This document shows, one piece after another, positions 206 through 61,811 of a stretch of DNA of 64,000 bases. The position numbers were made by a program, and so were the translations under genes. The stretch spans positions 217,659 through 281,658 of IMG/VR virus record IMGVR_UViG_3300042907_001080; one strand, 5' to 3'. Every line of letters starts with the position of its first letter. Position 1 is the stretch's first letter. A model generated the notes under the pieces. That model ran no database searches. It was not told where the DNA came from and worked only from the letters and a program-made list of their open reading frames with translations. Source of the DNA: a virus.

Positions 206-213
206 TATTTACC
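206..213 (-). promoter_or_regulatory. Late-type promoter motif GGTAAATA, leaderless configuration
   Basis: Read on the minus strand the motif is GGTAAATA, then CATGT, then the ATG at 200. In T4 late promoters the TATAAATA box ends at -6, which would place +1 on the A of the start codon. Confidence 0.55.
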
Positions 214-214
214 G

Positions 215-222
215 CATAAATA
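215..222 (+). promoter_or_regulatory. Late-type promoter motif CATAAATA
   Basis: CATAAATA lies back to back with the divergent motif at 206-213. Predicted +1 is near 228, giving a short leader that contains the ribosome-binding site AAGGAG (229-234) in front of the ATG at 243. Confidence 0.55.
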
Positions 223-1538: not shown

Positions 1539-2328
1539 CTACAAATTTGTCCTGAACATCCTGTGGATTTGGTTCTCCGTGAAACACAGCTATACTACAA
1601 TCTGGAGGAGGTCGCACATCGTGTTTCACTGTTTTGAATCGCCGTCCGCCATGTGCAACAGTGAGTTCATCTCTGCTGCGTATTTCCCATTTGTAACTCA
1701 TAATCCATTCTTTGGGCCAAAATATCATTCTATCTTTGGCTATCTTCCAAATCCAATCTTGATCTCCTTGCAGCCGTTGTGCCTCCGACGGTTTCGATTT
1801 GAATTGATCGTATATATGACCTTGTGTGCCGTGTGTCCATGCCAACACCGAACTGTTGAGATAATTCCAACTGGGGAAAAATTTTCTATTGAAATCATGG
1901 ATACCTATAAAACTGGTAGGATGATATCCAGTGAGCTTATTCATGTTGGCATGTATGACTACATCTAGATCCAGATATAATATTCTTCCCCTGAGAGGTA
2001 ATGCAGAATCAAACATGTGAACCTTGTGCCACCAACCTCTAGCATAATTGGCGTTGGGTTGATATATTTTACGAACTCCGGCAATATCATGTTGATCGTC
2101 GGTGAGACAGGCAAACTCATAAGGCACTGTGAGATGTCTAGACACCATATTACGTAGACGCTCTACATATTCACGACCATATTTGTTACCGAATCTCACA
2201 CACAGCACAGTGATAGGTTCGTTGAGATCCGAAGGCACTACAAGATCGGGATATTCTCCACGTGCTGCCATTTTGGCAGCTCGCTTTTCAGCCTTGGCTT
2301 GTATGCGTTGTTCTTTTGACAATTCCAT
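1522..2328 (-). CDS. Glycosyltransferase-like protein with DxD motif
   Basis: 268 residues. The N-terminal 20 residues are charged (KEQRIQAKAEKRAAKMAAR). A GT-A-type fold is suggested by ITVLCVRFGNKYG, a central region with YEFACLTDD, and ILYLDLDVVI near residue 120, which carries the DxD that binds metal and nucleotide sugar in many GT-A enzymes. The sequence resembles phage and bacterial proteins often annotated as GT8-like or hypothetical. It overlaps kdsA by 41 bp and is transcribed with it, so a role in surface-sugar or virion glycosylation is plausible. Donor and acceptor cannot be inferred. Confidence 0.6.
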   Translation of the reverse strand: MELSKEQRIQAKAEKRAAKMAARGEYPDLVVPSDLNEPITVLCVRFGNKYGREYVERLRNMVSRHLTVPYEFACLTDDQHDIAGVRKIYQPNANYARGWWHKVHMFDSALPLRGRILYLDLDVVIHANMNKLTGYHPTSFIGIHDFNRKFFPSWNYLNSSVLAWTHGTQGHIYDQFKSKPSEAQRLQGDQDWIWKIAKDRMIFWPKEWIMSYKWEIRSRDELTVAHGGRRFKTVKHDVRPPPDCSIAVFHGEPNPQDVQDKFVVDNWQ

Positions 2329-3133
2329 CTATGGCTACCAAGTCTTTTAAAATATCACCCAGGTCGTCTAGTTTGATCATATTTGGACCATCGCTAGGAG
2401 CACTATCAGGATCTTCGTGACATTCCATAAAGACAGCTGCCACTGAACCTGTGGCTATAGCAGCTCTCGCCAGGTATGGGACCATGGTCCTATCTCCGCC
2501 AGATCTTTCTCCCATTCCTCCAGGCTGTTGAACAGAATGTGTGGCATCAAAGACCACTGGATAGCCAGTGCTTGCCATAATAGGTAGGCTGCGCATATCA
2601 ACCACAAGATTATTGTATCCATGAGTGTATCCTCTTTCGCATAACATAATGCGTTCGTTTCCAGTTGAAGCAATCTTTGATGCGACGTTTTTCATATCGT
2701 GGGGAGCAAGAAATTGTCCCTTCTTGACATTTATAGCACAGCCTGTAGCACCCGCGGCCAACAATAAGTCAGTTTGTCTACATAAAAATGCTGGAATCTG
2801 TAGTATGTCAATGCCAGCATCTGCACATTCCTTTGCCTGCCAGCTTTCATGAATGTCTGTCAAAACAGGCACTCCGAACGTATGTTTAATCGCATTAAGA
2901 ACATCAAGTCCTTCTTTGATTCCTACACCACGTTTGGTAGAAATACTAGAACGATTGGCTTTGTCAAAACTGCTTTTGTATATCAAAGGAATACCTAATA
3001 ATGCTGTGATAGCAATTAATCTTGCACAAGTATCTTCTGCATGATCTTGACTTTCAATTTGGCAAGGTCCAGCAATTAATACGAACGGAAGATTGTTACT
3101 AACAGAGAGAGAATTAATATTAAATGTATGCAT
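2288..3133 (-). CDS. kdsA: 3-deoxy-D-manno-octulosonate 8-phosphate synthase (KdsA)
   Basis: 281 residues from the preferred start (MHTFNINSL). KdsA condenses arabinose-5-phosphate and phosphoenolpyruvate to KDO-8-phosphate for lipopolysaccharide inner core. The family pattern is complete: LIAGPCQIES near residue 20, YKSSFDKANRSS, VLTDIHE, LQIPAFLCRQTDLL, NVKKGQFLAPHDM, FDATHSVQQPGG, GGDR and ECHEDPD...SDGPNM. An alternative ATG lies five codons upstream (3148), but the TAAATA late motif ends exactly 5 nt before 3133, favouring the shorter leaderless form. It may support host LPS synthesis during infection or modify phage receptors. Confidence 0.92.
   Translation of the reverse strand: MHTFNINSLSVSNNLPFVLIAGPCQIESQDHAEDTCARLIAITALLGIPLIYKSSFDKANRSSISTKRGVGIKEGLDVLNAIKHTFGVPVLTDIHESWQAKECADAGIDILQIPAFLCRQTDLLLAAGATGCAINVKKGQFLAPHDMKNVASKIASTGNERIMLCERGYTHGYNNLVVDMRSLPIMASTGYPVVFDATHSVQQPGGMGERSGGDRTMVPYLARAAIATGSVAAVFMECHEDPDSAPSDGPNMIKLDDLGDILKDLVAIDGIVKRTTHTSQG
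3039..3046 (-). other. No additional feature: internal kdsA segment checked for an alternative start
   Basis: I looked here for an internal ribosome-binding site or start that could shorten kdsA and saw none. The N-terminal motif AGPCQIES requires the upstream start. Confidence 0.2.
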
Positions 3134-3138: not shown

Positions 3139-3146
3139 TATTTACC
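3139..3146 (-). promoter_or_regulatory. Late-type promoter motif GGTAAATA before kdsA, leaderless configuration
   Basis: Minus strand reads GGTAAATA, ATTAT, ATG. The five-base gap puts the predicted +1 at the A of the ATG at 3133. The motif overlaps the stop-codon region of the upstream 63-residue gene. Confidence 0.55.
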
Positions 3147-6505: not shown

Positions 6506-6515
6506 TGTATTTATC
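6506..6515 (-). promoter_or_regulatory. Late-type promoter motif GGATAAATAC
   Basis: GATAAATA on the minus strand ends seven bases before the ATG at 6500, so only a two-base leader would be made. This is close to the leaderless pattern seen elsewhere in the window. Confidence 0.5.
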
Positions 6516-12501: not shown

Positions 12502-12507
12502 TAAATA
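12502..12507 (+). promoter_or_regulatory. Late-type promoter motif TTAAATAC
   Basis: TAAATA ends ten bases before the ATG at 12518. Predicted +1 near 12513 leaves a five-base leader (AGATT) without a ribosome-binding site. It heads the plus-strand block 12518-20764. Confidence 0.5.
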
Positions 12508-25630: not shown

Positions 25631-26328
25631 GATATTGCCCATTGTCTTTCTTTACACCAAAAGCATTCGTTACAAACTGGAACGTATTGACCCGGTATAT
25701 AGTTTTTATAATCAATGCCTACTATCTCGCCTTCACAACTGCGGGTAATTTCAAACAGATCCGTGAGGCCAAGCTCACTATACATTTTAACAATTTCTGA
25801 CTTGTCTGTGAAGCGGAATGGATGATAAACCATAAAGCCCATGTGTTCCATTTCTGCCAAATGCTTGTTGTCCTCTGTAGGGTCAATGTCACGTTCACTC
25901 ATACCATTGAATTGTGCTAATCTTGGGTTACGGGTTACTCCGTTGTAAAACGCATCTATGTTATATTTCTTACAAATATACTCTGCGTAAGCTCTTGCTT
26001 GAATGTTGTCACCGCTCACTTGCTTACCATACTCGTCGGTTAAGTTTGGTCCTACATTGCCGTACTCTAAATCGGGCGCAATAAAGTTAATATGCCGTTT
26101 AAATGTTGTATGATAGAAATTTTGAAATAACCATTTACACACAGTATCTGCATTGTCTTGTTGCCAAGGTTTGGTTTTCCAGCAACGTATATGATTAATG
26201 ATATGTATAGTTATATTATGTTCTTTGGCTTTTTGGCAAACCATATAGGCAAGTAATGCGCTATCGGCACCGCCACTAACGGCAATGGCAATGTTTTTCC
26301 ATTTTGGATTGAAGGGTACCTTGAACAT
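25615..26328 (-). CDS. PP-loop ATPase, QueC-like
   Basis: 237 residues from MFKVPFNPKW. The PP-loop SGGADSALLAY is at residues 18-28, binding ATP pyrophosphate. TRNPRLAQF, FRFTDKSEIVKMY and FEITRSCEGE follow, and the end has VCNECFWCKERQWA, a cysteine set like QueC's zinc site. QueC converts CDG to preQ0; with the QueD-like gene at 3330 it may support deazaguanine synthesis. The sequence is distant from canonical QueC, so an asparagine-synthase-like or other AMP-forming ligase is possible. A leaderless-type late motif precedes the ATG by 5 nt. Confidence 0.65.
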   Translation of the reverse strand: MFKVPFNPKWKNIAIAVSGGADSALLAYMVCQKAKEHNITIHIINHIRCWKTKPWQQDNADTVCKWLFQNFYHTTFKRHINFIAPDLEYGNVGPNLTDEYGKQVSGDNIQARAYAEYICKKYNIDAFYNGVTRNPRLAQFNGMSERDIDPTEDNKHLAEMEHMGFMVYHPFRFTDKSEIVKMYSELGLTDLFEITRSCEGEIVGIDYKNYIPGQYVPVCNECFWCKERQWAISCQDL

Positions 26329-26333
26329 GGATA

Positions 26334-26341
26334 TATTTACA
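26334..26341 (-). promoter_or_regulatory. Late-type promoter motif GTAAATA, leaderless configuration
   Basis: On the minus strand TGTAAATA is followed by TATCC and the ATG at 26328: a five-base gap. It faces the plus-strand motif at 26357. Confidence 0.55.
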
Positions 26342-26356
26342 CGAGTTATACTAGCA

Positions 26357-26364
26357 CATAAATA
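26357..26364 (+). promoter_or_regulatory. Late-type promoter motif CATAAATA
   Basis: CATAAATA, TTTC, ATG (26369): a four-base gap. If translation uses the next ATG at 26384 instead, a short leader remains. Confidence 0.5.
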
Positions 26365-26383
26365 TTTCATGATTAACATAACC

Positions 26384-28599: not shown

Positions 28600-29287
28600 A
28601 AAGTTTTTTACACTCGTCCATAAAATCAGAAGGGAAGTTTGTTTTAAAACTTTCAAATGCTAACAGTTGTATGTCTTTAAAGGGAGTCGGCTTATCCACG
28701 TCTATTCCCATAGCAGACATTTTAGGAAATAGATCTGCTTGCCTATCTTCACTGATATGGCTCATTACGCTACGTAAACTAATAGCAGGATCGTGATCAC
28801 GATAACAGAAAAAATAATTGATACTTTTAAGTTGACCGTTGACAACAAAATAACTACTGGGATGTAGACTGTATTTGTAGATACCTAATGCTTTGTGTGC
28901 TTTAAATATTTCTAACATCTGTTCTCGCCAATTGGGCAGTACACTATCGTAGTCTTGTTTAATAGGATCAGATTGTTGCCAAAAGTCATCACCATCTATT
29001 TCAAGATAGAGTTTTCTTTTTTCTAAATCTATATTAATAATGTTGGGAACTAGGTGCGGAAATATATTACGCATTTGAGTAATAAAATTTACTTCGCGCA
29101 ACCATTTTTCATTCATTAGACTAGGGTCTACTACTTGATTCTGACCTTTATGATAATCAGTATCGTTGTGGTACCATTGACAAAATGTTTTTTTATCTTT
29201 GCTAATTAAGCTGGTATAAATTAGGTTATTTCGGCAAAGGCCTTTTCCTGGAACATCGTTATAATAGTATTCATATTCTGCAGTCAT
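28592..29287 (-). CDS. Phage protein, possible degenerate kinase-like fold, paralogue of 17303-18007
   Basis: 231 residues. Segments NEKWLREVNFITQM, HLVPNIINIDLEKRKLYLEI, MLEIFKAHKALGIYKYSLHP and QLKSINYFFCY line up with the protein at 17303. The pattern 'helix - Leu-Gly-Ile-Tyr-Lys - His - strand' resembles the catalytic loop area of kinase-like folds without conserved Asp. A leaderless-type motif (TAAGTA, five bases, ATG) lies upstream, in a 27-bp divergent region. Confidence 0.5.
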   Translation of the reverse strand: MTAEYEYYYNDVPGKGLCRNNLIYTSLISKDKKTFCQWYHNDTDYHKGQNQVVDPSLMNEKWLREVNFITQMRNIFPHLVPNIINIDLEKRKLYLEIDGDDFWQQSDPIKQDYDSVLPNWREQMLEIFKAHKALGIYKYSLHPSSYFVVNGQLKSINYFFCYRDHDPAISLRSVMSHISEDRQADLFPKMSAMGIDVDKPTPFKDIQLLAFESFKTNFPSDFMDECKKLYV

Positions 29288-29314
29288 ACAAATACTTATC
29301 AGCTAAGTATTAAC
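29288..29314. promoter_or_regulatory. Compact palindromic divergent promoter
   Basis: The 27 bp between the two start codons contain AATACTTA-TCAGC-TAAGTATT, an exact 8-bp inverted repeat. Each arm carries TAAGTA five bases before an ATG (29287 on the minus, 29315 on the plus strand). Both predicted transcripts would begin at the start codon. Confidence 0.6.
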
Positions 29315-30130
29315 ATGATTAGAGGAATTGGCGGCAAGCCTTACATTAATTTAGATCCATTTTTGGATGTAAAAGGGTTTACAGAGTTACATCCAGAAAT
29401 CTGTAAAGGTTTTGCTTTAGCAAGGGATTATGCCAAAGAAGGCACATGGATGGCTCCAGGCTTTGATCAAAGTCGAGGCAGTTATCAGTGGAACTGGAAA
29501 CCGATATACAAAGCACATGAAGAATATCTTGCCTTGTCGAATGATCATCCCATTAAAATTCAAGGTCAAGAAATATATCCTACAGATTTTAAAGACTACA
29601 AACAACGCAATTTATTCACACGTTATCTTAAAAGTGTATTAGGTGCTAACGATCCTTATACCTATTATTTTCTATGGAACGAAGGCGACTGGAATGAACG
29701 CAATGCTGAAAGACAAAAGACTGAGGAAAGCAACTTCTTTCCCGGTGTTGTTCAGTGGGTAGAAAATCTACAAGAACAAGGTATAATAGATCGCATAGGG
29801 CGTGTTATATTTTTTCTTTGCGATCATAACGGCAAAGCATTTGAACATCGAGACCTAGATGCTAAAAACGGTGTGTTTGAAAATGATTACTATACTCCGC
29901 ATAATAACGAATTCATACATATAAGATATCGCACCAAGCGAGGTTTCTATATATGGGATCCCGACACACAAGACAAACACTATATTAATAGCCATGCTGC
30001 TATGTGGAACGATCAAGACTGGCACGGTGGGGAATCTAGCCTAGAACAAGAATACGGACTTAGAATTGACTGTAAGTTTACACAAGAATTCCGTAAACAA
30101 ATTGGAATAGATCATTTAGAGAATTATTAA
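29315..30130 (+). CDS. 2-oxoglutarate/Fe(II) oxygenase-like protein
   Basis: 271 residues. FEHRDLDAKNG (H178-R-D180) with FIHIRYRTKRGFYIWDPDTQ and INSHAAMWNDQDWHGGES (H227 or H237 as distal ligand) and the strand YGLRIDCKFTQEF form a cupin-type 2-oxoglutarate-dependent oxygenase pattern. The N-terminal half is a specific domain (PFLDVKGFTELHPEICKGF) with no match that I recognise. It precedes a twitch radical SAM gene with a stop/start overlap (TAATG). Confidence 0.62.
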   Translation: MIRGIGGKPYINLDPFLDVKGFTELHPEICKGFALARDYAKEGTWMAPGFDQSRGSYQWNWKPIYKAHEEYLALSNDHPIKIQGQEIYPTDFKDYKQRNLFTRYLKSVLGANDPYTYYFLWNEGDWNERNAERQKTEESNFFPGVVQWVENLQEQGIIDRIGRVIFFLCDHNGKAFEHRDLDAKNGVFENDYYTPHNNEFIHIRYRTKRGFYIWDPDTQDKHYINSHAAMWNDQDWHGGESSLEQEYGLRIDCKFTQEFRKQIGIDHLENY

Positions 30131-35143: not shown

Positions 35144-35876
35144 AAGATTTTTTATAACTCTTTGCAATTAATTTAACAAAATCATTTATCCGGGTCCCGG
35201 GTATTCCGTGAGCTATTAAATGTATTCTTGAAATGTTGTTAAAATTTATAACACTGTGATAATTTCTAATATTAATGATAAAAACTTTACCTTCTTCCCA
35301 TGGAATACACCCGTATTCTTTAAGAGTCATATGACAATCGAGAGGATGTAATATAGCAACATTGATAGGGACTCCGAACTCTAATGCATCGAAATTTTCT
35401 TCGCCCGGGAGTTTTCCGGGCATATCACTATGCGGTGTAATAGCACTATTTGACTCTAATTCCATAAAACGAATTCGTCTATATGATTCATACGGAAAAT
35501 TTTCCCAAAAAGATTTTATTGTTGGTGTATCCTGCGATAGTGTGGTCCAATGATATGGAACGTCGATTTCTTTTGTATATCCGTATTTTGTCCAAGCACC
35601 AGTTTTTTCAATATCAATCCCGTGTATGCAACAGCTATTCCAACCTGTGTTATTTTCTTCTCTGTGTGGAACTAGATATTTTAAAGATTGAGAAGCTTCT
35701 CGTTTCCATGAATCTAGATTTATCTCAATATCCAATTCTAACCAACCGAAGTCACTTTCGTTTAATAACCAATTTGAAATTTCAAAATCAGTTACAACGT
35801 TATCAGGCAGACTGGGCAAAACGCTGGTATAGTTTTTATTTTCATTATAGAAATTGAGAGAATCAGAGTTTATCAT
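35118..35876 (-). CDS. 2-oxoglutarate/Fe(II) oxygenase, aspartyl hydroxylase-like
   Basis: 252 residues from MINSDSLNFYN. The end half has RRIRFMELESNSAITPHSD (HxD), ILHPLDCHMTLKEYG, GKVFIINIRNYHSVINF (distal His) and SRIHLIAHG (Arg for 2-oxoglutarate), which is the Asp/Asn hydroxylase cupin. The N-half is specific. An in-frame ATG five codons upstream exists; GATAATTA followed by TTAAT and the internal ATG fits a degenerate leaderless motif. Confidence 0.68.
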   Translation of the reverse strand: MINSDSLNFYNENKNYTSVLPSLPDNVVTDFEISNWLLNESDFGWLELDIEINLDSWKREASQSLKYLVPHREENNTGWNSCCIHGIDIEKTGAWTKYGYTKEIDVPYHWTTLSQDTPTIKSFWENFPYESYRRIRFMELESNSAITPHSDMPGKLPGEENFDALEFGVPINVAILHPLDCHMTLKEYGCIPWEEGKVFIINIRNYHSVINFNNISRIHLIAHGIPGTRINDFVKLIAKSYKKSYETQNKNS

Positions 35877-35904
35877 ATTAATAATTATCATAAAAAAATT
35901 CAGT

Positions 35905-35910
35905 TAAATA
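35905..35910 (+). promoter_or_regulatory. Late-type promoter motif TTAAATA, leaderless configuration
   Basis: TTAAATA, CAGAT, ATG (35916): exact five-base gap. Heads the long plus-strand run 35916-44886. Confidence 0.55.
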
Positions 35911-44886: not shown

Positions 44887-44908
44887 AAGCCCTCAGGGGC
44901 TTTTATTT
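44881..44908. terminator. Bidirectional hairpin terminator
   Basis: AAATAAAAGCCC-TCAG-GGGCTTTTATTT: a near-perfect 12-bp stem between convergent gene ends (44886 and 44908), with A/T runs on both sides. Confidence 0.85.
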
Positions 44909-46380
44909 TAAGGATTCAATCCGTAATATGGAACAGCATAATTTGTTCCGCCGATATTCATTTTAAGATAACCAACTACTCCGCCGCCAAGATTAACCTG
45001 TCCTGACGCACCACCAGCAACTACACTGTTATTCGCTACGTGAAGTAATTGTGTATGGTCTACTTTAAACGCTGATACTAAAGTTCCGGCATTATTAAGT
45101 GTTGATATCTCATAAGCTCCCGGAACAGCTCCGCCTGAAGTAACAGTTCCACTAGCTTTTGCTGTAACGATTACCGCAGGGATATGTGTGGTACCGTTAT
45201 GTCCCAGATAATAATCTGCAGCAATTGTGTCACCGGATAGCACTATAGTTCGGCTATCTATAGTTCCTCTAGACCTAAGTTGTAATTTAGGAGACCCGTC
45301 GACTTCATTGTTAGCTAGATCAATGAGGAATAGATTATAAGAATCATTTATATCACCTTCTGATTGTATTACAAACTCGCCTAGATCTTTGTTTATAGTA
45401 ATAGAATTCGTTTGTATAGGCCCTACGATTTTTCCGGTCCCAGTTCCATCTACAAGCATTGTAGAATCTTGTCCAAATACAGAACCTCTTATATCCCCCT
45501 CGACATTACCTGTGACGTTACCAATTAATGATGATCCGGCTGTACCAGTAACAATGCCGTTAACGTTGCCTGTAACGTTACCTGTGACGTTACCAGTTAA
45601 TGATGATCCAGCTGTACCAGTAACAATGCCGTTAACGTTGCCTGTGACGTTACCTATGACGTTACCAGTTAATGATGATCCAGCTGTACCAGTAACAATG
45701 CCGTTAACGTTGCCTGTGACGTTACCTACAAATCCGCCCTGTGCAGTTACAACTTCTGTGGTGGTATTTACAATAATCGTGCTGTCGTCAGCCACGATAT
45801 TAACATTTAAATCACCGCCGGGTATTCCGATCGCTGATCCACCAATGGTAGATCCTGCTGGTAGATTTACCGCTGTACCGGTAGCTGTAATGGTTGCGGC
45901 ACCTAGTTTAATACTTGATCCGCTGAGATATAAATCTCTAAATCTAAATGTTGGACTACCTAGATCGTATACAACATCTGCGTCTGGTATAATGTCGGTA
46001 CTAACACTGCCAGATAAATTAAATTTTCCTGTGTTTCCGTCTATCAAAAGACTACTGTCGTTGGCAACCACAGACCCGTTGAATGCTGCTGCTTTGATCA
46101 CGCCCTGGTAATCTGATAAATCTACAGTGGCATTTACTTTATTCAAAGCATCGTCGTAGGCAAATGTTATTGAATTATGTGTGCCAGTAACAAACATGGC
46201 TGCTGATGCATCTCTGGCGTTTTCGTCAGTGTATTCTGTGACAGCAACACCTCCAAGGGTAGTGCCATTACCTATCCATAATCTATTGGTGTTTGTGACA
46301 AATATAAGCTCGCCCGCGGCCAAGGGCTGGGTCATGGCTGTTCTTTCAGCGTCAGTGCCTCTGCGAATCTGTAACGGCAT
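44908..46380 (-). CDS. Tail fibre/adhesin-like protein with 24-residue repeats
   Basis: 490 residues. The start MPLQIRRGTDAERTAM..., LAAGELIFVTNTNRLWIGNG is the N-terminal domain found in phage receptor-binding proteins (Mtd-N-like, IRRGT...GELxxxTDTxxLxIGDG). The middle has three 24-residue repeats of GNVTGNVNGIVTGTAGSSLT type, coded by 72-bp units (from about 45,527 to 45,740), giving a beta-solenoid or shaft. The C-terminal third is variable-looking with a terminal GYLKMNIGGTNYAVPYYGLNP tip motif. It is preceded by AGGAGT and a late-type CATAAATATATA motif. A role in receptor binding is inferred. Confidence 0.75.
   Translation of the reverse strand: MPLQIRRGTDAERTAMTQPLAAGELIFVTNTNRLWIGNGTTLGGVAVTEYTDENARDASAAMFVTGTHNSITFAYDDALNKVNATVDLSDYQGVIKAAAFNGSVVANDSSLLIDGNTGKFNLSGSVSTDIIPDADVVYDLGSPTFRFRDLYLSGSSIKLGAATITATGTAVNLPAGSTIGGSAIGIPGGDLNVNIVADDSTIIVNTTTEVVTAQGGFVGNVTGNVNGIVTGTAGSSLTGNVIGNVTGNVNGIVTGTAGSSLTGNVTGNVTGNVNGIVTGTAGSSLIGNVTGNVEGDIRGSVFGQDSTMLVDGTGTGKIVGPIQTNSITINKDLGEFVIQSEGDINDSYNLFLIDLANNEVDGSPKLQLRSRGTIDSRTIVLSGDTIAADYYLGHNGTTHIPAVIVTAKASGTVTSGGAVPGAYEISTLNNAGTLVSAFKVDHTQLLHVANNSVVAGGASGQVNLGGGVVGYLKMNIGGTNYAVPYYGLNP
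45527..45742 (-). repeat. Three tandem 72-bp repeats in tail-fibre gene
   Basis: The marker AATGATGATCC recurs at 45527, 45599 and 45671, a constant 72-bp period equal to 24 codons, with only a few substitutions. Recombination between units could change shaft length. Confidence 0.85.
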
Positions 46381-46413: not shown

Positions 46414-46421
46414 TATTTATG
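46414..46421 (-). promoter_or_regulatory. Late-type promoter CATAAATA before the tail-fibre gene
   Basis: CATAAATATATATGG on the minus strand, about 34 bases upstream of the ATG at 46380, followed by AGGAGT as ribosome-binding site. A conventional leader, in contrast with the leaderless cases. Confidence 0.6.
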
Positions 46422-48288: not shown

Positions 48289-48362
48289 TGGTGCTCCAAC
48301 CAAGAATCGAACTTGAAATACATCCTTACCAAGGATGCGTTATGCCATTTAACTATAGGAGC
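48289..48362 (-). tRNA. tRNA-Thr (GGT)
   Basis: 74 nt with encoded CCA. Anticodon loop TTGGTAA on stem GCATCC/GGATG. Acceptor GCTCCTA/TTGGAGC. It overlaps the 3' end of the oxygenase gene by 14 bp. Confidence 0.9.
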
Positions 48363-48927
48363 ATTCTATGTCTGCTGCCAATACAAATCGATATTGGTTG
48401 CTCTGTACAATGCCCGGACGGTGCCATGTGTCACTGGGATATATGATCCAGTGGCCTTGAGTGGGAGTGATGAAATACTTGCCATCTTGTTCTGCACCGT
48501 TGGGTGCTATTTCTGTGCCGCAATAGTCTCGATCCTTGACATCGCTGGGAATGTGCAGATAGTATATTCCGCTGAACATTTTATTATTGGGATTTTTTGG
48601 ATGCCAATGATTGTGCCATAGTTTTTCTCGATTTTCGGCACTCTGAAGATTGGTCATAAAACTCCAAGCCATCATCTCTGATACTTTGACTTCACGACCT
48701 AGATACATGAACACAGAGAACATAAAACTCATTCTGTATTTCAGCCATACGGGTTCTGGTCTGGAAAAAATATTTTCTTTGGTTTGAAACTTGGGACTGT
48801 TTGTAAAATAATTGCCGTCGGCAATAATGTTCTTGATAATTTTGCAGGCCATAGCGTCATCTTCAGCAGTGATTACACTGCTAAAATTAAATTTGCGAAC
48901 AAGCTCTGTTTGATCTACTACCTGCAT
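48349..48927 (-). CDS. 2-oxoglutarate/Fe(II) oxygenase-like protein (TIGR02466/P4H-like)
   Basis: 192 residues. HNHWHPKNPNNKMFSGIYYL, then HIPSDVKD, and GHWIIYPSDTWHRPGIVQSN followed by an Arg-containing strand (RFVLAADIEC) match a family of putative 2-oxoglutarate oxygenases with PSWLxHxVxP-type end. It lacks a clean HxD, so the iron ligands are uncertain. This tenth oxygenase-like protein lies outside the island. The end overlaps tRNA-Thr, an unusual mRNA/tRNA overlap. Confidence 0.62.
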   Translation of the reverse strand: MQVVDQTELVRKFNFSSVITAEDDAMACKIIKNIIADGNYFTNSPKFQTKENIFSRPEPVWLKYRMSFMFSVFMYLGREVKVSEMMAWSFMTNLQSAENREKLWHNHWHPKNPNNKMFSGIYYLHIPSDVKDRDYCGTEIAPNGAEQDGKYFITPTQGHWIIYPSDTWHRPGIVQSNQYRFVLAADIECSYS

Positions 48928-48935
48928 GGTATCCT

Positions 48936-49009
48936 TGGAGCGGGATGAGAGAATCGAACTCTCGACCGAAGATTGGAAATCTGCTGTTTTGCCATTAAAC
49001 TAATCCCGC
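48936..49009 (-). tRNA. tRNA-Gly (TCC)
   Basis: 74 nt with CCA. Loop TTTCCAA on AGATT/AATCT. U73 discriminator as expected for Gly. Confidence 0.92.
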
Positions 49010-49034
49010 ATTGTCTTTACTTATCAACTAACTT

Positions 49035-49111
49035 TGGTCGGAGTACAAGGATTCGAACCTTGGACCCCCTGGTCCCAAACCAGGTGCGCTACCAGACTGC
49101 GCCACACTCCG
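49035..49111 (-). tRNA. tRNA-Pro (TGG)
   Basis: 77 nt with CCA. Anticodon stem CCTGG/CCAGG, loop TTTGGGA. Acceptor CGGAGTG/TACTCCG. Confidence 0.92.
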
Positions 49112-49114
49112 AAT

Positions 49115-49342
49115 TTATTCTACTTTTTTAAGATATTCTCGACCTATCTTGCCTTCTTGGACATCTAATAGAGCACTCACCGGAGAGTTGATTTGAGTAG
49201 TCAGCCCTGCTGTTTTGTGTCTACGAGACAATTCTCTGGCTCTTACTGTAGCGATTAGCACAAGATCAAATCTGTTGCCTCCCGCTTGTTCTACACATTG
49301 TTGTGTATCTACGGTAGGTCCACGACTATCAGATAATTTCAT
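49115..49342 (-). CDS. rpoZ: RNA polymerase omega subunit
   Basis: 75 residues. CVEQAGGNRFDLVLIATVRA matches the conserved omega helix IGNRFDLVLVAARRARQM, and SALLDVQEGKIGREYLKK corresponds to the second conserved helix. Omega (host about 90 residues) latches the beta' subunit and stabilises core RNA polymerase; here the C-terminal variable tail is absent. A phage-encoded omega could replace or compete with the host one and redirect promoter choice. It lies between tRNA-Pro and the initiator-like tRNA. The start codon has a weak AAAGGC ribosome-binding site. Confidence 0.9.
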   Translation of the reverse strand: MKLSDSRGPTVDTQQCVEQAGGNRFDLVLIATVRARELSRRHKTAGLTTQINSPVSALLDVQEGKIGREYLKKVE

Positions 49343-49362
49343 TTTTTGCCTTTGTAAAAAAA

Positions 49363-49436
49363 TGGTTGCGGGACCTGGAATCGAACCAGGATCTAGAGCT
49401 TATGAGACTCTTGAGTTACCGTTTCTCTATCCCGCG
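49363..49436 (-). tRNA. tRNA-Met (CAT), initiator-like (C1xA72)
   Basis: 74 nt with CCA. With U8 and A9 in their standard places, position 1 is C and position 72 is A, the mismatch diagnostic of bacterial initiator tRNA. A11-U24 in the D stem is another initiator feature. The anticodon stem AGAGT/GCTCT lacks the GGG/CCC triple of standard fMet tRNAs. An alternative alignment restoring a 1-72 pair breaks U8 and leaves an extra 3' A. Confidence 0.82.
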
Positions 49437-49451
49437 ATAAACTTTATAGAG

Positions 49452-49566
49452 GCTCTCTGTTGGAATCGAACCAAACTGTTTAACTCCGTATCTTCCTGGC
49501 ACTTTCGGTGGTTAGTCGACTTAGCACCTAACTCGTGTGATCCAGTGTAGTTAAACTTCAAAGAGC
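49452..49566 (-). ncRNA. tRNA-like structured RNA, 115 nt, unidentified
   Basis: A canonical T-arm (TTTGG-TTCGATT-CCAAC) and 7-bp acceptor (GCTCTTT/AGAGAGC, with a G.U pair that forms only in the minus-strand RNA) enclose no normal D or anticodon arm. Instead there is a long-range stem GTTTAACT/AGTTAAAC and internal stems CTGG/CCAG, GTTAG/CTAAC and CAC/GTG. CCA is not encoded. The layout recalls the tRNA domain of tmRNA, but the tmRNA 5' consensus and a tag reading frame ending in AA codons are missing. Confidence 0.45.
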
Positions 49567-49781
49567 TTTTATAAAGTGTCTAGCTACCTACACCACATAG
49601 GCCCTAGACTGAGCTGTTACTCTGTCCACTAATTTTTTCATCTGGACGGGTTTCGTTCCCGCCCCTAGGTAGTTTTCAGTATCCCCCAACAGGGGCTGTA
49701 AGGTCAGGTCCTAGTGTACCCCCTGGTCTATCGTTACAGGGACGGATTGTTTACTAACGGAAACAATCAAACCGGGGTCTG
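49567..49781 (-). ncRNA. Structured non-coding stretch downstream of the 49782 gene
   Basis: No reading frame. Minus-strand hairpins include GATTGTTT/AAACAATC (8 bp, right after the stop codon), CCCC-TGTT-GGGG, GGCGGG-AACGAAA-CCCGTC (with a G.U pair), and a long GTCTAG...CTAGAC stem containing CCTA-TGTGGTG-TAGG. These continue into the tRNA-like element, so one processed RNA of about 330 nt is possible. Confidence 0.4.
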
Positions 49782-50357
49782 TTAGATCAAGCCTTCTGCC
49801 TGTAGTGTTGCTACTACATCGTCTGCCAGAGGAATCTCTGTGCGGATGTTCAACTCAAGCACTTCATCGTTGAGCTGTTGTTTTTGCTTCTTTAGGTTAA
49901 GCACTTCTGCTTTGGCCTGTGCAATTTGTTCTTTGCTGAGAACGCTGGTGCTCACAGTATCACTATAGCCGTAAAGACTGCGACGAGTGTTTTCGCCCTT
50001 GTCGTTCTTGATCTTTTCCAGCTTGCCTTTAATCACTTCCAAAGAAGTAATCTCTGTGGCTTTAGCCAGTTCTTCTAGCTGACCGATGCGCTTGTCAATG
50101 AACGCTGCCTTGGCTAATGCTGTGTTAATACCACTGGCTGCGTTGGCTGTTCCAATCAATGCACGGATGTTGTACATAGCCATGGTTAACTTTTGTCTGC
50201 GACCATCGTTGGTAACCAATTCAGAATTGGCCTTGGTGATAGCAGCTTCTACGTCTTGAAACTCATTGAGTTCAATAGTGAAATCTACTTTGATACTTTT
50301 GATGGTATCATTGATGCTGTTCTGCACAGCATTTGCTTTTCTCAGTGTGATATTCAT
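49782..50357 (-). CDS. Conserved helical phage protein
   Basis: 191 residues from MNITLRKANAVQNSINDTIK; AAGGAAG seven bases upstream fixes this start. The family (MNITLRKAN..., IELNEFQDVE, LTMAMYNIRALIGTANAASGI, IDKRIGQLEEL, VIKGKLEKIKNDKG, VSTSVLSKEQI, LKKQKQQLNDEVLELNIRTE-I) is common in phages of Gram-negative bacteria and is predicted to be coiled coil. Function unknown. It follows a strong promoter and a 280-nt structured leader. Confidence 0.68.
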   Translation of the reverse strand: MNITLRKANAVQNSINDTIKSIKVDFTIELNEFQDVEAAITKANSELVTNDGRRQKLTMAMYNIRALIGTANAASGINTALAKAAFIDKRIGQLEELAKATEITSLEVIKGKLEKIKNDKGENTRRSLYGYSDTVSTSVLSKEQIAQAKAEVLNLKKQKQQLNDEVLELNIRTEIPLADDVVATLQAEGLI

Positions 50358-50393
50358 TTTTCTTCCTTTTTCAAACAACAATGACGGGTCCAT

Positions 50394-50645
50394 GAAAGGT
50401 CAAGTAATAGACCGGACAATAGACAATGAAGATTTGTATTCTTCGTTGACAATGTGCAATATACAATACACAGAGGTCTATATATTTCCGATTAACAAAT
50501 GACATTCTATTAGGAATCGGATCACATAAACACGTTCCAATTTCAAGTTGGATTGTAAGTTTGGAGTAAGCATGAAGCTCACGCCTTTGTGTCTATTCTC
50601 GTCTACCCTTCACTTCACCGGTTGAAACATTTCTGTTCCAACAAA
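50394..50645 (-). ncRNA. Long multi-hairpin 5' leader or sRNA
   Basis: A perfect sigma70 promoter (50649-50677) predicts a transcript starting near 50642, exactly where the first hairpin (50621-50642, GTTGGAAC/GTTTCAAC) begins. More hairpins: 50566-50582, 50536-50552, TCCGATT/AATCGGA (50487-50521) and 50428-50444. Two contain G.U pairs that work only in minus-strand RNA. No open frame is present. Either a regulatory leader for the 50357 gene or a processed small RNA. Confidence 0.5.
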
Positions 50646-50648
50646 ACT

Positions 50649-50677
50649 ATTATAACATTCTTTTAAGTGTGTGTCAA
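50649..50677 (-). promoter_or_regulatory. Perfect sigma70 promoter with extended -10
   Basis: TTGACA, 17 bp ending TGT, TATAAT on the minus strand, in the gap between tRNA-Thr(TGT) and the multi-hairpin leader. Confidence 0.88.
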
Positions 50678-50684
50678 CATGTTT

Positions 50685-50758
50685 TGGTGCCCCTTGACAG
50701 AATCGAACTGCCAATTGATGATTACAAATCAACTGTTATACCATTTAACTAAAAGGGC
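50685..50758 (-). tRNA. tRNA-Thr (TGT)
   Basis: 74 nt with CCA. Loop TTTGTAA; the anticodon stem has one U.U mismatch. Acceptor GCCCTTT/AAGGGGC. Confidence 0.88.
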
Positions 50759-50774
50759 CTACTACTACTTATCT

Positions 50775-50849
50775 TGGTGGAGGATGGGAGGATCGAACTC
50801 CCGACTGAAGCTTGCAAAGCTACCGTGTTCCCAGCTATACCAATCCCCC
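50775..50849 (-). tRNA. tRNA-Ala (TGC)
   Basis: 75 nt with CCA. Loop TTTGCAA; acceptor GGGGGAT/ATCCTCC contains the G3.U70 pair that identifies alanine tRNAs. Confidence 0.92.
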
Positions 50850-50851
50850 GA

Positions 50852-51067
50852 TTAATCCCTAGTTGATGCTGTGCCAGTGGGATTCTTAGTGTATCCACCT
50901 GGACCAGCAGGTCTCTTTTCTCTCTTGGGCTGAACAGCTGCACATAGCTCAGCATCGATCATTGCACGTTTCCATGCACCTCGCTTGTGCGGATCTAAAA
51001 CTCCACTCAGTGCTAGACTTGCTTTAGTCATTGAACTCATTCTATAATTTGGACCTGGTTTCATCAT
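50852..51067 (-). CDS. Small conserved basic phage protein
   Basis: 71 residues (MMKPGPNYRMSSMTKASLAL..., DPHKRGAWKRAMIDAELCA). It resembles a family of short phage proteins with the pattern KPGPxYxxSKxTK...HKRGxWKRxMIxAxL. AAGGAAAA before ATGATG gives the start. It is embedded in the tRNA array between tRNA-Ala and a GC-rich structured RNA. Function unknown. Confidence 0.68.
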   Translation of the reverse strand: MMKPGPNYRMSSMTKASLALSGVLDPHKRGAWKRAMIDAELCAAVQPKREKRPAGPGGYTKNPTGTASTRD

Positions 51068-51074
51068 TTTTCCT

Positions 51075-51289
51075 TTTTTAAAATCTGGTTGCTCTGCATC
51101 CCCCGGCGGTAATTATATCGCATCAGGCACCGGGAACCCCCAATACCATCACACACGACCTCCACCCGCTCCCCGACAGGGACCGTTCTCGCATTGCTAG
51201 CGGCCTTTCGGTTCGAAGACTACCACCCGTAGCTGTCACGCTACTTCTCATCGTGTGGGTCACACTATCCGGAGACACCCGGAACGTTC
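51075..51289 (-). ncRNA. GC-rich structured RNA of unknown class
   Basis: About 215 nt, GC-rich against AT-rich neighbours. Minus-strand hairpins: a 9-bp stem at 51126-51147 with three G.U pairs (absent in the plus strand), then 51229-51244 (5 bp), 51253-51265 (5 bp, triloop) and 51268-51283 (5 bp). Loops of the first and last of these share TGTC/GACA and could pair. It lies in the leader of the 51067 gene, after tRNA-Ser. Confidence 0.5.
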
Positions 51290-51377
51290 TGGCGGAGCAT
51301 GTAGGAATCGAACCTACTCACCCATTGCTGAATGACAGATTAGCAATCTGTTGCCTTAACCGGTCGGCCAATGCTCC
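51290..51377 (-). tRNA. tRNA-Ser (GCT)
   Basis: 88 nt class II tRNA with CCA and long variable arm. Anticodon loop TTGCTAA on CAGA/TCTG. Confidence 0.92.
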
Positions 51378-51385
51378 GTATTACT

Positions 51386-51461
51386 TGGTGGGTCGTGACA
51401 GTCTCGAACTGCCGACATTCTGCGTGTAAGGCAGACGCTCTACCAACTGAGCTAACGACCC
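51386..51461 (-). tRNA. tRNA-Val (TAC)
   Basis: 76 nt with CCA. Acceptor GGGTCGT/ACGACCC, loop CTTACAC. Confidence 0.92.
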
Positions 51462-51512
51462 TGACCATTAAAAAATAACATTACACCTTATAGGATGAGA
51501 CAAATTTCTGAG

Positions 51513-51539
51513 TGGAGTTCGATTCTCCTCATAAGCCAT
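51513..51539 (+). other. Orphan T-arm-like sequence on the plus strand
   Basis: TGGAG-TTCGATT-CTCCT is a tRNA T-arm oriented opposite to all other tRNAs here; upstream sequence does not give a full cloverleaf. Probably the remnant of an inverted tRNA gene in the 167-bp gap between tRNA-Val and tRNA-Leu. Confidence 0.35.
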
Positions 51540-51628
51540 TGTCCACGGTTATGTCAGAGGAGTAAGATGGCCCTATTCCTCATGAGATTGTGCGTCCACA
51601 AACGATACCCGCTAATGCTATTTTTTAA

Positions 51629-51711
51629 TGGTGCCCTAGGACGGACTCGAACCGTCACGCTTGCGCACTGGCTTCTAAGACCAGCGTGTCTACCAATTCC
51701 ACCACCAGGGC
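51629..51711 (-). tRNA. tRNA-Leu (TAG)
   Basis: 83 nt class II tRNA with CCA. Anticodon loop CTTAGAA, stem CTGGT/GCCAG. Confidence 0.92.
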
Positions 51712-51766
51712 AAAAAATTTACATTTAATTTTTAATGAACGTTTAACTAATTTCTCAGTATGTTAT

Positions 51767-51795
51767 ATTGTAACATCGTTGTTGCATACTGTCAA
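51767..51795 (-). promoter_or_regulatory. Sigma70 promoter inside the tRNA array
   Basis: TTGACA, 17 bp ending TGT, TACAAT. Starts transcription before tRNA-Leu(TAG), in a 92-bp gap. Confidence 0.7.
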
Positions 51796-51803
51796 CCTTT
51801 ATC

Positions 51804-51878
51804 TGGCACCGCCTACAGGAATCGAACCCATATTCAAGAGGTAGAAGCTCTTTGTATTATCCATTATACTAAAGCGGT
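51804..51878 (-). tRNA. tRNA-Arg (TCT)
   Basis: 75 nt with CCA. Loop CTTCTAC, acceptor ACCGCTT/AGGCGGT, G73. Confidence 0.9.
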
Positions 51879-51879
51879 A

Positions 51880-51963
51880 TGGTGCGAGAAACGGGACTCG
51901 AACCCGTATGCCTTGCGGCGGCAGATTTTAAGTCTGCTGTGTATACCATTCCACCACTCTCGC
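51880..51963 (-). tRNA. tRNA-Leu (TAA)
   Basis: 84 nt class II tRNA with CCA. Loop CTTAAAA on GCAGA/TCTGC. One base separates it from tRNA-Arg. Confidence 0.92.
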
Positions 51964-51971
51964 ATTTATAT

Positions 51972-52047
51972 TGGTGCTACCTCTAGGAATCGAACCTAGT
52001 TCAACGGTTCTTCAGACCGCCGCTATGACCACATCAGCTAAAGTAGC
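51972..52047 (-). tRNA. tRNA-Phe (GAA)
   Basis: 76 nt with CCA. Loop CTGAAGA, stem GCGGT/ACCGT. Confidence 0.92.
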
Positions 52048-52049
52048 AT

Positions 52050-52141
52050 TGGTGCCTCCGCCGGGAGTCGAACCCAGATGAACCAATTATCTGTTGCTTA
52101 CGGGATATAAATCCGCCGTTTTACCATTAAACTACAGAGGC
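52050..52141 (-). tRNA. tRNA with anticodon TAT (Ile-AUA?) and long variable arm
   Basis: 92 nt with CCA. Counting from a standard D-arm (GTTT/AAAC) places TAT at 34-36 in loop TTTATAT, with one A.C mismatch at 31-39. The 22-nt variable region is class II length, normally Leu, Ser or Tyr. Reading AUA would suit this AT-rich genome, but identity is uncertain. Confidence 0.65.
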
Positions 52142-52191
52142 AAAAGAAAAACTTTACAGCATCAACTATGTTAAACGAGTAAAGCCATGTT

Positions 52192-52265
52192 TGGGGTGAA
52201 AGCGGGAATCGAACCCTGCCTTACTGTTTCACAGACAGCCGTGCAGCCATTACACTACTAACACC
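52192..52265 (-). tRNA. tRNA-His (GTG)
   Basis: 74 nt including the G-1 and C73 typical of histidine tRNAs, with CCA. Loop CTGTGAA. Two U.U mismatches in the acceptor stem. Confidence 0.88.
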
Positions 52266-52271
52266 ATTGTT

Positions 52272-52346
52272 TGGCCGGTCCGGAGAGATTCGAACTCCCG
52301 ACAGCTGGTTTCGAAGACCAGAACTCTTCCACTGAGCTACGGACCG
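52272..52346 (-). tRNA. tRNA-Arg (TCG)
   Basis: 75 nt with CCA. Loop CTTCGAA on TGGT/ACCA, acceptor CGGTCCG/CGGACCG. Confidence 0.92.
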
Positions 52347-52352
52347 ATTGAT

Positions 52353-52426
52353 TGGCAGAGGGTAAAGGAATCGAACCTTTAATGACGGAATCAAAATCCG
52401 TAGTTATACCATTTAACTAACCCCCA
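52353..52426 (-). tRNA. tRNA-Gln (TTG)
   Basis: 74 nt with CCA. Loop TTTTGAT on ACGGA/TCCGT; weak 1-72 pair as usual for Gln; G73. Confidence 0.9.
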
Positions 52427-52432
52427 ACAATT

Positions 52433-52508
52433 TGGTGGTAATAGTTGGACTCGAACCAACGATAGGCTGCGTATGAAGCAACTGCATTAGCCACTATGCT
52501 ATATTACC
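52433..52508 (-). tRNA. tRNA-Met (CAT), elongator or Ile2
   Basis: 76 nt with CCA. Loop TTCATAC, stem GTTGC/GCAGC, paired G1-C72. Unlike the CAT tRNA at 49363 it has no initiator mismatch. Confidence 0.85.
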
Positions 52509-52515
52509 ATATAGA

Positions 52516-52593
52516 AACACACTTGGAACTTTCTCATTGAACGGATGGTGTTCTGTCCTTACTATCTAGACTACGTCTAGAATCAAGTATGTT
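52516..52593 (-). ncRNA. Small three-way-junction RNA of unknown class
   Basis: Minus strand: a closing stem AACATACTTG/CAAGTGTGTT (10 bp, one G.U pair only valid on this strand), hairpin TCTAGA-CGTAG-TCTAGA, and GAAC-ACCATCC-GTTC with a 7-nt loop. It has the size of a tRNA and lies between tRNA-Lys and tRNA-Met, but no T-loop or CCA. Possibly a degenerate tRNA or a novel small RNA. Confidence 0.45.
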
Positions 52594-52599
52594 TTTATA

Positions 52600-52673
52600 T
52601 GGTAGGGGCACAGAGAATCGAACTCTGATTTACTGGTTAAAAGCCAGTTACTTTACCATTAAGTTATACCCCC
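52600..52673 (-). tRNA. tRNA-Lys (TTT)
   Basis: 74 nt with CCA. Loop CTTTTAA on CTGG/CCAG, G1.U72 acceptor end. Confidence 0.92.
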
Positions 52674-52800
52674 AACTGTTTATGACATTTGTCACTGTCC
52701 ATAACAGGATCTCCTATTTTAAATTTTTGTCGATAAAATATATCAATACTACCAGCATGAGTAAAACTGCAACCGCCCCATTTTGTTTTCTCCTTATAAG

Positions 52801-52874
52801 TGGTGCCCAGAACAAGAATCGAACTTGTAATAATCGCTTATCAAGCGACCGTTATACCATTTAACTATCCGGGC
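52801..52874 (-). tRNA. tRNA-Ile (GAT)
   Basis: 74 nt with CCA. Loop TTGATAA on GTCGC/GCGAT; acceptor GCCCGGA/TCTGGGC. A 127-bp gap follows before tRNA-Lys. Confidence 0.92.
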
Positions 52875-52878
52875 AATT

Positions 52879-52968
52879 TGGCGGAAGTAGTAGGATTCGA
52901 ACCCACGGCCCCTTTCGGAACTTCAGTTTTCAAGACTGCTGCCTTAAACCATGCTCAGCCATACTTCC
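52879..52968 (-). tRNA. tRNA-Ser (TGA)
   Basis: 90 nt class II tRNA with CCA. Loop CTTGAAA on CAGT/ACTG, long variable arm with CCGAAAGG. Confidence 0.92.
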
Positions 52969-52973
52969 ATAAT

Positions 52974-53054
52974 TGGTACCCCGGGCGGGAGTTGAACCCG
53001 CATTTAAATTTCTCTTTTTGAGAGAGACGACTTTGCCAATTTGTCTACCGGGGC
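52974..53054 (-). tRNA. tRNA-Leu (CAA)
   Basis: 81 nt with CCA. Loop CTCAAAA on TCTCT/AGAGA, Leu-type D arm, rather short variable region; G1.U72. Confidence 0.85.
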
Positions 53055-53060
53055 GTTGTT

Positions 53061-53137
53061 TGGAATAGCGGGTGGGATTCGAACCCACGAACAACAGTTT
53101 TGCAGACTGCGCCATTAGGCCTCTCTGGCACCGCTAT
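53061..53137 (-). tRNA. tRNA-Cys (GCA)
   Basis: 77 nt with CCA. Loop CTGCAAA on CAGT/ACTG; U73 as required for cysteine. Confidence 0.9.
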
Positions 53138-53143
53138 ATAGAA

Positions 53144-53149
53144 TAAATA
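53144..53149 (+). promoter_or_regulatory. Late-type promoter motif AATAAATA
   Basis: TAAATA, TCGA, ATG (53154): a four-base gap, again predicting transcription start at or inside the initiation codon. Confidence 0.5.
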
Positions 53150-53153
53150 TCGA

Positions 53154-54098
53154 ATGCTTATAAAATTACAATTTTCTCACGACAGTTGCTTGACTATCAA
53201 ATTGTTTGATAATTCTGCAGCTCGCAAGTGGTTTTCTTTTTATTCACTTAAAAATAACAATAAATCAGTTCCAATAAATTTCAATGATAATTATAATCAC
53301 ATAAACTATTTTAAGAAACGTAAAAATCGATATGAAAACCAGATTGCTGAAGAATGGGAAAAAATACATCGGAGTCTTAACAATCTCAAAGATCTGGGAT
53401 ACATTTCAAATATAGAATTGCCAGCGATGTTTGATTATCAACAAAGTCGACTTAATCTACTGCACAGATTTTTTACCACAAATGCTATATGGGATCATAA
53501 ATTCAATGATAAACGTATTCATAAGCCAAATCCCATTGACAGTAATTTTTACACTACGGTAGAAAATCGTCAACATTTTAAAAACTGCATTGAACAGATC
53601 AATGCATCAGTGCATTTTCTCGAAAGTTTTACAGACCCGGAGAACAGAAAAATATTAGATACTCTGCCGTTGAATTCTATAATTATTATATCACAGAATA
53701 ATATAGCTAATCACGACACCTGGTGCCAATTTTCTCATGATGAACAACAAGAAAATTACAAATATCTGCAATATCTTGAATGCAATCAACCATTGGTATT
53801 ATTAGATAACTCTATCACTGGTAAAAGCTATCTACAAAATTTTCTAGAGAACGATGATCCTACCAACGAAGACTGCACAGGACGAGAAGGTTCGCACGGT
53901 AATCTCATTATTGATACCAACGATAATAGACAAAAAATATATTCCAGCGACAAGTTCCAAGCCTGGGCAGATCACTACGGGTTAAAAAACATACCATATG
54001 AATTTGCTATCGGTTCTGTTATAGACTGTGACTACAGTGAAATGCACAAATTTCAGAACTGTTCTCAAACTAGACTAACATATCATTCAACACTCTAA
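53154..54098 (+). CDS. Unrecognised late protein inserted antisense in the tRNA array
   Basis: 314 residues, plus strand, between tRNA-Cys and tRNA-Gly(GCC), both minus strand. Asn-, Asp- and Tyr-rich; helical N-half (KKRKNRYENQIAEEWEKIHR), later HDTWCQFSHDEQQENYKYLQ, DNSITGKSYLQNFLENDDP and a C-terminal CDYSEMHKFQNCSQ. No domain or signal peptide recognised. The late-type motif and opposite strand suggest an independent acquisition. Its neighbouring tRNAs would be transcribed early from the other strand. Confidence 0.6.
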   Translation: MLIKLQFSHDSCLTIKLFDNSAARKWFSFYSLKNNNKSVPINFNDNYNHINYFKKRKNRYENQIAEEWEKIHRSLNNLKDLGYISNIELPAMFDYQQSRLNLLHRFFTTNAIWDHKFNDKRIHKPNPIDSNFYTTVENRQHFKNCIEQINASVHFLESFTDPENRKILDTLPLNSIIIISQNNIANHDTWCQFSHDEQQENYKYLQYLECNQPLVLLDNSITGKSYLQNFLENDDPTNEDCTGREGSHGNLIIDTNDNRQKIYSSDKFQAWADHYGLKNIPYEFAIGSVIDCDYSEMHKFQNCSQTRLTYHSTL

Positions 54099-54101
54099 TA
54101 C

Positions 54102-54175
54102 TGGAGCGGGATAGGAGAATCGAACTCCTAACTAAACCTTGGCAAGGTTTCGTTTGACCATTAAACTAATCCCGC
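54102..54175 (-). tRNA. tRNA-Gly (GCC)
   Basis: 74 nt with CCA, U73. Loop TTGCCAA on AACC/GGTT. Acceptor identical to that of tRNA-Gly(TCC), so the two are probably duplicates. Confidence 0.92.
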
Positions 54176-54180
54176 ATATA

Positions 54181-54255
54181 TGGAAGACCGTAGGGGAGTC
54201 GAACCCCTCTTACCAGGATGAAAACCTAGTGTCCTAACCGATAGACGAACGGTCC
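54181..54255 (-). tRNA. tRNA-Glu (TTC)
   Basis: 75 nt with CCA. Loop TTTTCAT on CTAGG/CCTGG. Position 73 is U where Glu tRNAs usually have G, and 1-72 is G.U. Confidence 0.88.
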
Positions 54256-54263
54256 ATAAAACT

Positions 54264-54337
54264 TGGCGTACCTCCAGGGACTCGAACCCCGACGAACAGT
54301 TTTGGAGACTGTGATGCTGCCATTACATTAGAGATAC
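54264..54337 (-). tRNA. tRNA-Trp (CCA)
   Basis: 74 nt with CCA and G73. Loop CTCCAAA on ACAGT/ACTGT; acceptor GTATCTC/GAGGTAC. Confidence 0.92.
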
Positions 54338-54342
54338 ATTAT

Positions 54343-54421
54343 TGGCTCCGAGTAAGAGGATCGAACTCTTCTAACCAGTGATTAACAGTCACGCCCATGC
54401 ACCTTGCTCGGGTTTCTCGGA
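54343..54421 (-). tRNA. tRNA-Asn (GTT)
   Basis: 79 nt with CCA and G73. Loop CTGTTAA on GTGA/TCAC; one A.A mismatch at acceptor position 7-66. Confidence 0.88.
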
Positions 54422-54428
54422 ATAAAAT

Positions 54429-54503
54429 TGGCGGTCTGTGGGGGAATCGAACCCCCGTAAGCGGATAGACAATCCGCAGTAATAACCTCTATACGAACAG
54501 ACC
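54429..54503 (-). tRNA. tRNA-Asp (GTC)
   Basis: 75 nt with CCA and G73. Loop TTGTCTA on GCGGA/TCCGC. Confidence 0.92.
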
Positions 54504-54508
54504 AAATT

Positions 54509-54592
54509 TGGTGGAGACGGCTGGAGTCGAACCAACAGTGCCGAAGCGGCGGATTTACAGTCCACTGGGGATACCAATTTTCCTACATCTCC
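54509..54592 (-). tRNA. tRNA-Tyr (GTA)
   Basis: 84 nt class II tRNA with CCA. Loop CTGTAAA. First tRNA of the array in transcription order. Confidence 0.92.
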
Positions 54593-61805: not shown

Positions 61806-61811
61806 TAAATA
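61806..61811 (+). promoter_or_regulatory. Late-type promoter motif GTTAAATA
   Basis: TTAAATA on the plus strand about 30 bases before the ATG at 61841, followed by GGGAGCG as ribosome-binding site. Starts the 61841-63663 cassette. Confidence 0.58.

Follow-up and report, generated by a model that had tools for sequence, protein, structure and literature searches.

A class of late genes in the phage studied here is best explained as being expressed from leaderless mRNAs, a reading that we consider very probable. These genes carry a TAAATA or TAAGTA (TAARTA) box ending 4–5 nt before the start codon, which resembles late promoters of the gp55 type. We infer the promoter function of the box, the exact +1 and leaderless translation; the two spacing classes and their conservation, the lack of Shine-Dalgarno sequences at short spacing, the pyrimidine at position −1 and the presence of a gp55 homologue come from the sequence itself. 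According to the proposed mechanism, the box would be the gp55-dependent late promoter of the source phage, fixed 4–5 nt upstream of the start codon at approximately 25 genes. Transcription would start at the A of the AUG (5-nt sites) or at most one base off (4-nt sites), and the resulting leaderless mRNA would be translated without a Shine-Dalgarno sequence. Other late genes would use the same box placed 14–40 nt upstream and thereby acquire a leader with a Shine-Dalgarno sequence.

The window, i.e. the whole stretch of 64,000 nucleotides under analysis, represents bases 217,659–281,658, the terminal part of a 281,658-bp virus record, the remainder of which was also analysed. Judging by its genes, the source virus is an uncultured jumbo phage of the T4 superfamily. 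Its terminase large subunit shares 54% identity with that of PA5oct, the nearest named relative, followed by those of Phosso, Atu_ph07 and Rak2-like jumbo phages. A gp55 homologue is encoded at 104135–104521(−) of the genome (phrog_234 match, E = 8e-26) and is nearest to the PA5oct 'sigma factor for late transcription' and to Phosso (∼46%). The profile of the gp33 co-activator (phrog_254) had no match in the genome, although a divergent gp33 might escape it, while the gp45 clamp profile (phrog_223) gave no match anywhere, controls included. TAARTA boxes were found upstream of the terminase, sheath, baseplate and neck genes. Late transcription of T4 is a textbook system, in which the mRNAs are leadered. 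The T4 late box (TATAAATA) spans positions −13 to −6 (PMC1524935); the earlier note had likewise placed its end at −6. The source phage resembles T4 in the TAAATA core, in possessing gp55 and in the placement of the box before virion genes; it differs in accepting TAAGTA and in lacking conservation of the initial T of TATAAATA.

The eight short-spacing genes singled out in the window by the earlier note are as it described them (Table 1): the box lies 5 nt from the ATG at six and 4 nt at two, 26369(+) and 53154(+), with TAAGTA as its sequence at 29287 and 29315. Also correctly recognized was a ninth, degenerate box at 35876(−), and relatives of this gene often carry the standard box instead of TAATTA. 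Five genes had been listed as having the box at a longer distance, three of them with a ribosome-binding site, and both statements hold. At 6500(−) the spacing is 5 nt in some relatives. Start codons of 200, 3133, 26328, 26369, 29287, 29315 and 35916 are backed by relatives. Gene 53154 is the weakest of the eight sites, since it has just four near-identical relatives and an A at −1.

Table 1. Putative late-promoter boxes in the 64-kb window and their distance to the start codon.
Gene	Box	Position	Strand	Distance to ATG (nt)	Product and context	Support
200(−)	TAAATA	206..211	−	5	Fe/Mn superoxide dismutase	orthologues: 34/43 at 4–5 nt
3133(−)	TAAATA	3139..3144	−	5	DAHP/KDO8P-synthase family	74/79 relatives at 4–5 nt
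26328(−)	TAAATA	26334..26339	−	5	PP-loop/QueC-like	sequence, relatives
26369(+)	TAAATA	26359..26364	+	4		34/51 relatives at 4–5 nt
29287(−)	TAAGTA	29293..29298	−	5		37/56 relatives at 4–5 nt
29315(+)	TAAGTA	29304..29309	+	5		69/78 relatives at 4–5 nt
35916(+)	TAAATA	35905..35910	+	5	radical SAM	sequence, relatives
53154(+)	TAAATA	53144..53149	+	4	within tRNA array	weakest-supported of eight
35876(−)	TAATTA (degenerate)	35882..35887	−	5	Asp/Asn hydroxylase-like	family 253549-: 16/37 at 4–5 nt
243(+)		217..222	+	20	leadered (contrast class), Shine-Dalgarno present	
12518(+)		12502..12507	+	10	without Shine-Dalgarno	
6500(−)		6508..6513	−	7	directly after terminator-like hairpin	short leader predicted
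46380(−)		46414..46419	−	33	leadered, with Shine-Dalgarno	
61841(+)		61806..61811	+	29	leadered, with Shine-Dalgarno	

Raw pattern counts in the window alone were rejected as proof. TAARTA-N5-ATG occurs 7 times versus 3.3 expected (7 of 100 shuffles were as high) and the N4 form 3 times versus 3.0, which is not significant because TAAATA itself is depleted approximately twofold in the window (44 versus 97 expected from dinucleotide shuffles). The depletion looks as if selection acts against stray late promoters. Counting only those ATGs that open an ORF of ≥60 aa gave 9 matches in the window for the spacings of 4 and 5 nt, one of which (15244+) sits within a longer ORF, versus 0.19 for each other spacing; the corresponding genome-wide figures are 29 and 1.04. 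Genome-wide, TAAATA-N4-ATG and TAAATA-N5-ATG are found 11 and 18 times, respectively, versus ∼3 for each other spacing. Genes were called with a simple caller in which the box earns no credit for the choice of start. The TAAATA/TAAGTA boxes of the genome form two classes, one at 4–5 nt and the other at ∼14–40 nt from the start codon. None of the 23 called genes of the former class has a Shine-Dalgarno sequence (≥4 bases), whereas 26 of the 33 TAAATA genes of the latter do. A search for an in-frame downstream start with a Shine-Dalgarno sequence within 40 codons found none at the 27 short-spacing sites. For unfolded 5′ ends at these sites there was a trend only (p = 0.07).

Loss of the box-to-ATG spacing in close relatives had been named in the earlier note as evidence against leaderless transcripts; the spacing is, however, retained, at 3133 (Table 1) as well as at the terminase and 29315. 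In the terminase relatives (79–100% identity) the box is located at 5 nt (64) or 4 nt (12) in 76 of 76 cases, counts which, like the other numbers of relatives given here, include closely related contigs and do not represent independent events. Despite this constancy, the terminase spacer occurs as 19 different sequences; a T-run, mostly the tail of a terminator-like hairpin, lies directly upstream of the box in 72 of the 76 relatives. At 29315 the distance of 4–5 nt is kept in 69 of 78 relatives (70–100% identity), the box alternating between TAAATA and TAAGTA. Among the exceptions are seven relatives in which the box is found at 18–23 nt, most of them with an AGGAG-type Shine-Dalgarno sequence; orthologues therefore swap between the two layouts. 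In the clade loci as a whole, 828 gene calls have the box at 4–5 nt (19 with a Shine-Dalgarno sequence), with only 14 at 3 nt and 10 at 6 nt, and 25 families have at least one member at 5 nt. The short-spacing pattern is displayed by 16 of 16 relative contigs and exceeds the reversed control in nearly all of them. Orthologues begin at the same ATG, and the start codons of the short-spacing genes are thus the real ones.

Since the T4 box ends at −6, +1 would be the A of the ATG at 5-nt sites. A pyrimidine at −1 preceding a purine at +1 is the usual initiator preference, and initiation at the A of the AUG should therefore leave an excess of pyrimidines at −1. At 267 distinct 5-nt sites in the clade loci the −1 base is T in 72% and C in 25% of cases (97% pyrimidine), compared to 44% pyrimidine at 3,224 other ATGs; across the 25 families, 435 of 439 members have a pyrimidine at this position. 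The preference is weaker at 4-nt sites (68%). Here T4 geometry would place +1 on the T of the ATG, which makes this subclass, represented by two of the eight genes in the window, less certain. The boxes of the leadered class show no clear pyrimidine–purine step at the predicted +1, which fits weaker selection where the exact +1 is immaterial and lends no positive support. It might be argued that the boxes are late promoters with +1 a few bases off, so that the mRNAs are near-leaderless, either carrying 1–4 nt ahead of the AUG or beginning just within it. The imperfect fit of the 4-nt sites to T4 geometry points in this direction, as do some genes with the box at 6, 7 or 8 nt and no Shine-Dalgarno sequence; the sharp drop in counts once the distance is 3 or 6 nt, together with the nearly invariable pyrimidine at −1 of 5-nt sites, nevertheless makes it improbable.

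At approximately 10 of the 27 sites, a co-directional upstream gene ends within 11 nt of the site or overlaps it, the gap being exactly 7–8 nt at four of them, and these genes may therefore also be read from longer mRNAs. Translation of the whole class could accordingly be coupled on mRNAs initiated upstream, the TAA of the box being merely the stop codon of the preceding gene. Such coupling is ruled out at the divergent pairs 26328(−)/26369(+) and 29287(−)/29315(+), at 26326–26371 and 29285–29317, which share intergenic regions of 40 bp and 27 bp (5+6+5+6+5), respectively, and at the terminase and 45511(−), where terminators directly precede the box. It would also leave the TAARTA sequence, the fixed spacing and the −1 pyrimidine unexplained, and we judge it very unlikely. 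The 27-bp region has no space for a ribosome-binding-site leader on either side, and at promoter pairs this compact two polymerases should exclude each other. In relatives, the intergenic regions of divergent pairs cluster at 26–27, 38–41 and 53–54 bp. Finally, the box adjoins the start codon in every short-spacing case, as would an A/T-rich translation or DNA element devoid of promoter activity. We find this barely credible, given that the same box stands 14–40 nt upstream with a Shine-Dalgarno sequence elsewhere, that orthologues swap layouts and that T4-type late promoters have the same sequence.

The proposed leaderless class is not confined to one function. The earlier note had assigned it chiefly to an island of enzyme genes; its proposal of leaderless late mRNAs is borne out by spacing, lack of Shine-Dalgarno sequences, conservation, −1 pyrimidine and gp55, as far as sequence can tell, but this assignment is not. 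Although the island holds five of the eight window sites, the class also comprises virion genes, namely those for the terminase large subunit, a terminase-small-like protein, the baseplate wedge, the neck (head-tail adaptor) and a tail-tube-like protein. Its enzymes include a heptose adenylyltransferase-like protein, superoxide dismutase, the DAHP/KDO8P-synthase-family protein, and PP-loop and radical SAM proteins. Leaderless mRNAs seem to be the templates for essential virion proteins, such as the terminase, in a whole clade of aquatic phages, and the box spacing offers a simple rule for finding correct gene starts and late promoters. About ten radical SAM proteins are encoded in the island itself (20712–44886), and some of these have SPASM or B12-binding domains; alongside them are a PP-loop protein and two Asp/Asn hydroxylase-like proteins. 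The nearest cellular relatives of the DAHP/KDO8P-synthase-family protein (2288–3133) are mostly from SAR11 and other Alphaproteobacteria (∼60% identity, with biased sampling), which hints weakly at a host among the Alphaproteobacteria without fixing it.

With the same caller, TAAATA was found 4–5 nt from the start of 19 genes in the source phage, 11 in Pelagibacter phage HTVC008M, 4 in P-SSM2 and 2 in PA5oct; T4, S-PM2 and GAP32 yielded no such gene calls, in contrast to the ∼25 genes with the box at this distance in the source phage. The leadered class is present in all seven genomes (12 genes in HTVC008M, 26–48 in the others), and PA5oct, unlike the source phage, has 48 gene calls at 14–40 nt and only 2 at 4–5 nt. 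The four 5-nt gene calls of P-SSM2 were set aside; most raw matches in that genome have A or G at −1. KVP40 has two isolated 4–5 nt matches, neither of them on an annotated start. The cultured phage HTVC008M, whose host Pelagibacter is an ocean bacterium, has 13 annotated starts with a short-spaced box (12 at 5 nt, one at 4 nt), among them those at 19456, 31132 and 49760; for the gene at 19456 the 5-nt distance is kept in 47 of 47 alignable orthologues, down to 47% identity. The −1 base is mostly a pyrimidine, as in the source phage; the spacer, unlike in the source phage, usually starts with GT. Annotated short-spacing starts are also found in Pelagibacter phage Mosig (60328-, 60990+, 92381-, 92996-, 94129+ and 106670-) and Methylophilales phage Melnitz (54825+ and 62263-), not all of them with a pyrimidine at −1. 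HTVC008M belongs to a distant lineage (Kyanoviridae), and its cyanophage kin are largely without the class. As the class is mostly absent from the closest kin of either lineage, an independent gain in the jumbo clade and in the HTVC008M lineage is the simpler reading.

The cI gene of phage lambda, when transcribed from PRM, gives an mRNA that begins at the AUG and has no Shine-Dalgarno sequence. Known leaderless cases in phages are single genes of this kind, whereas in the source phage leaderlessness is predicted to recur throughout a class of late promoters. Bacteria, too, have leaderless genes (surveyed in PMC3160421), and those with the −10 box next to the start codon share with the source phage a fixed distance between core promoter and ATG; there, however, the adjoining element is the −10 box of the host sigma-70, rather than a late sigma box. 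Translation of leaderless mRNAs resists kasugamycin (PMC5230787). Selected passages of the literature on AR9, CBB and T4-like cyanophages contain no description of a leaderless late class, and an earlier description elsewhere is possible. In pelagimyophages, late promoters could not be found by the methods used for cyanophages (PMC7029224), and short spacing may help to explain this failure. More speculatively, there might be a single late-sigma promoter type with two exchangeable translational classes set by spacing, evolved at least twice in the T4 superfamily (in the jumbo clade and in Pelagibacter/Methylophilales phages), with the phage favouring one class through the state of host ribosomes or initiation factors late in infection; we regard this scheme as possible but doubtful. 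Ribosomal protein S21 was searched for in the phage and not found. Leaderlessness of the host was also considered and dropped, as a peak seen in redundant SAR11 loci was absent genome-wide.

Two further features of the window concern genes listed in Table 1. The product of gene 46380(−) (44908–46380) has a major tropism determinant N-terminal domain and is a possible receptor-binding protein or diversity-generating target. Gene 53154(+) (53154–54098) breaks an array of 27 minus-strand tRNA genes that extends over 48289–54592.
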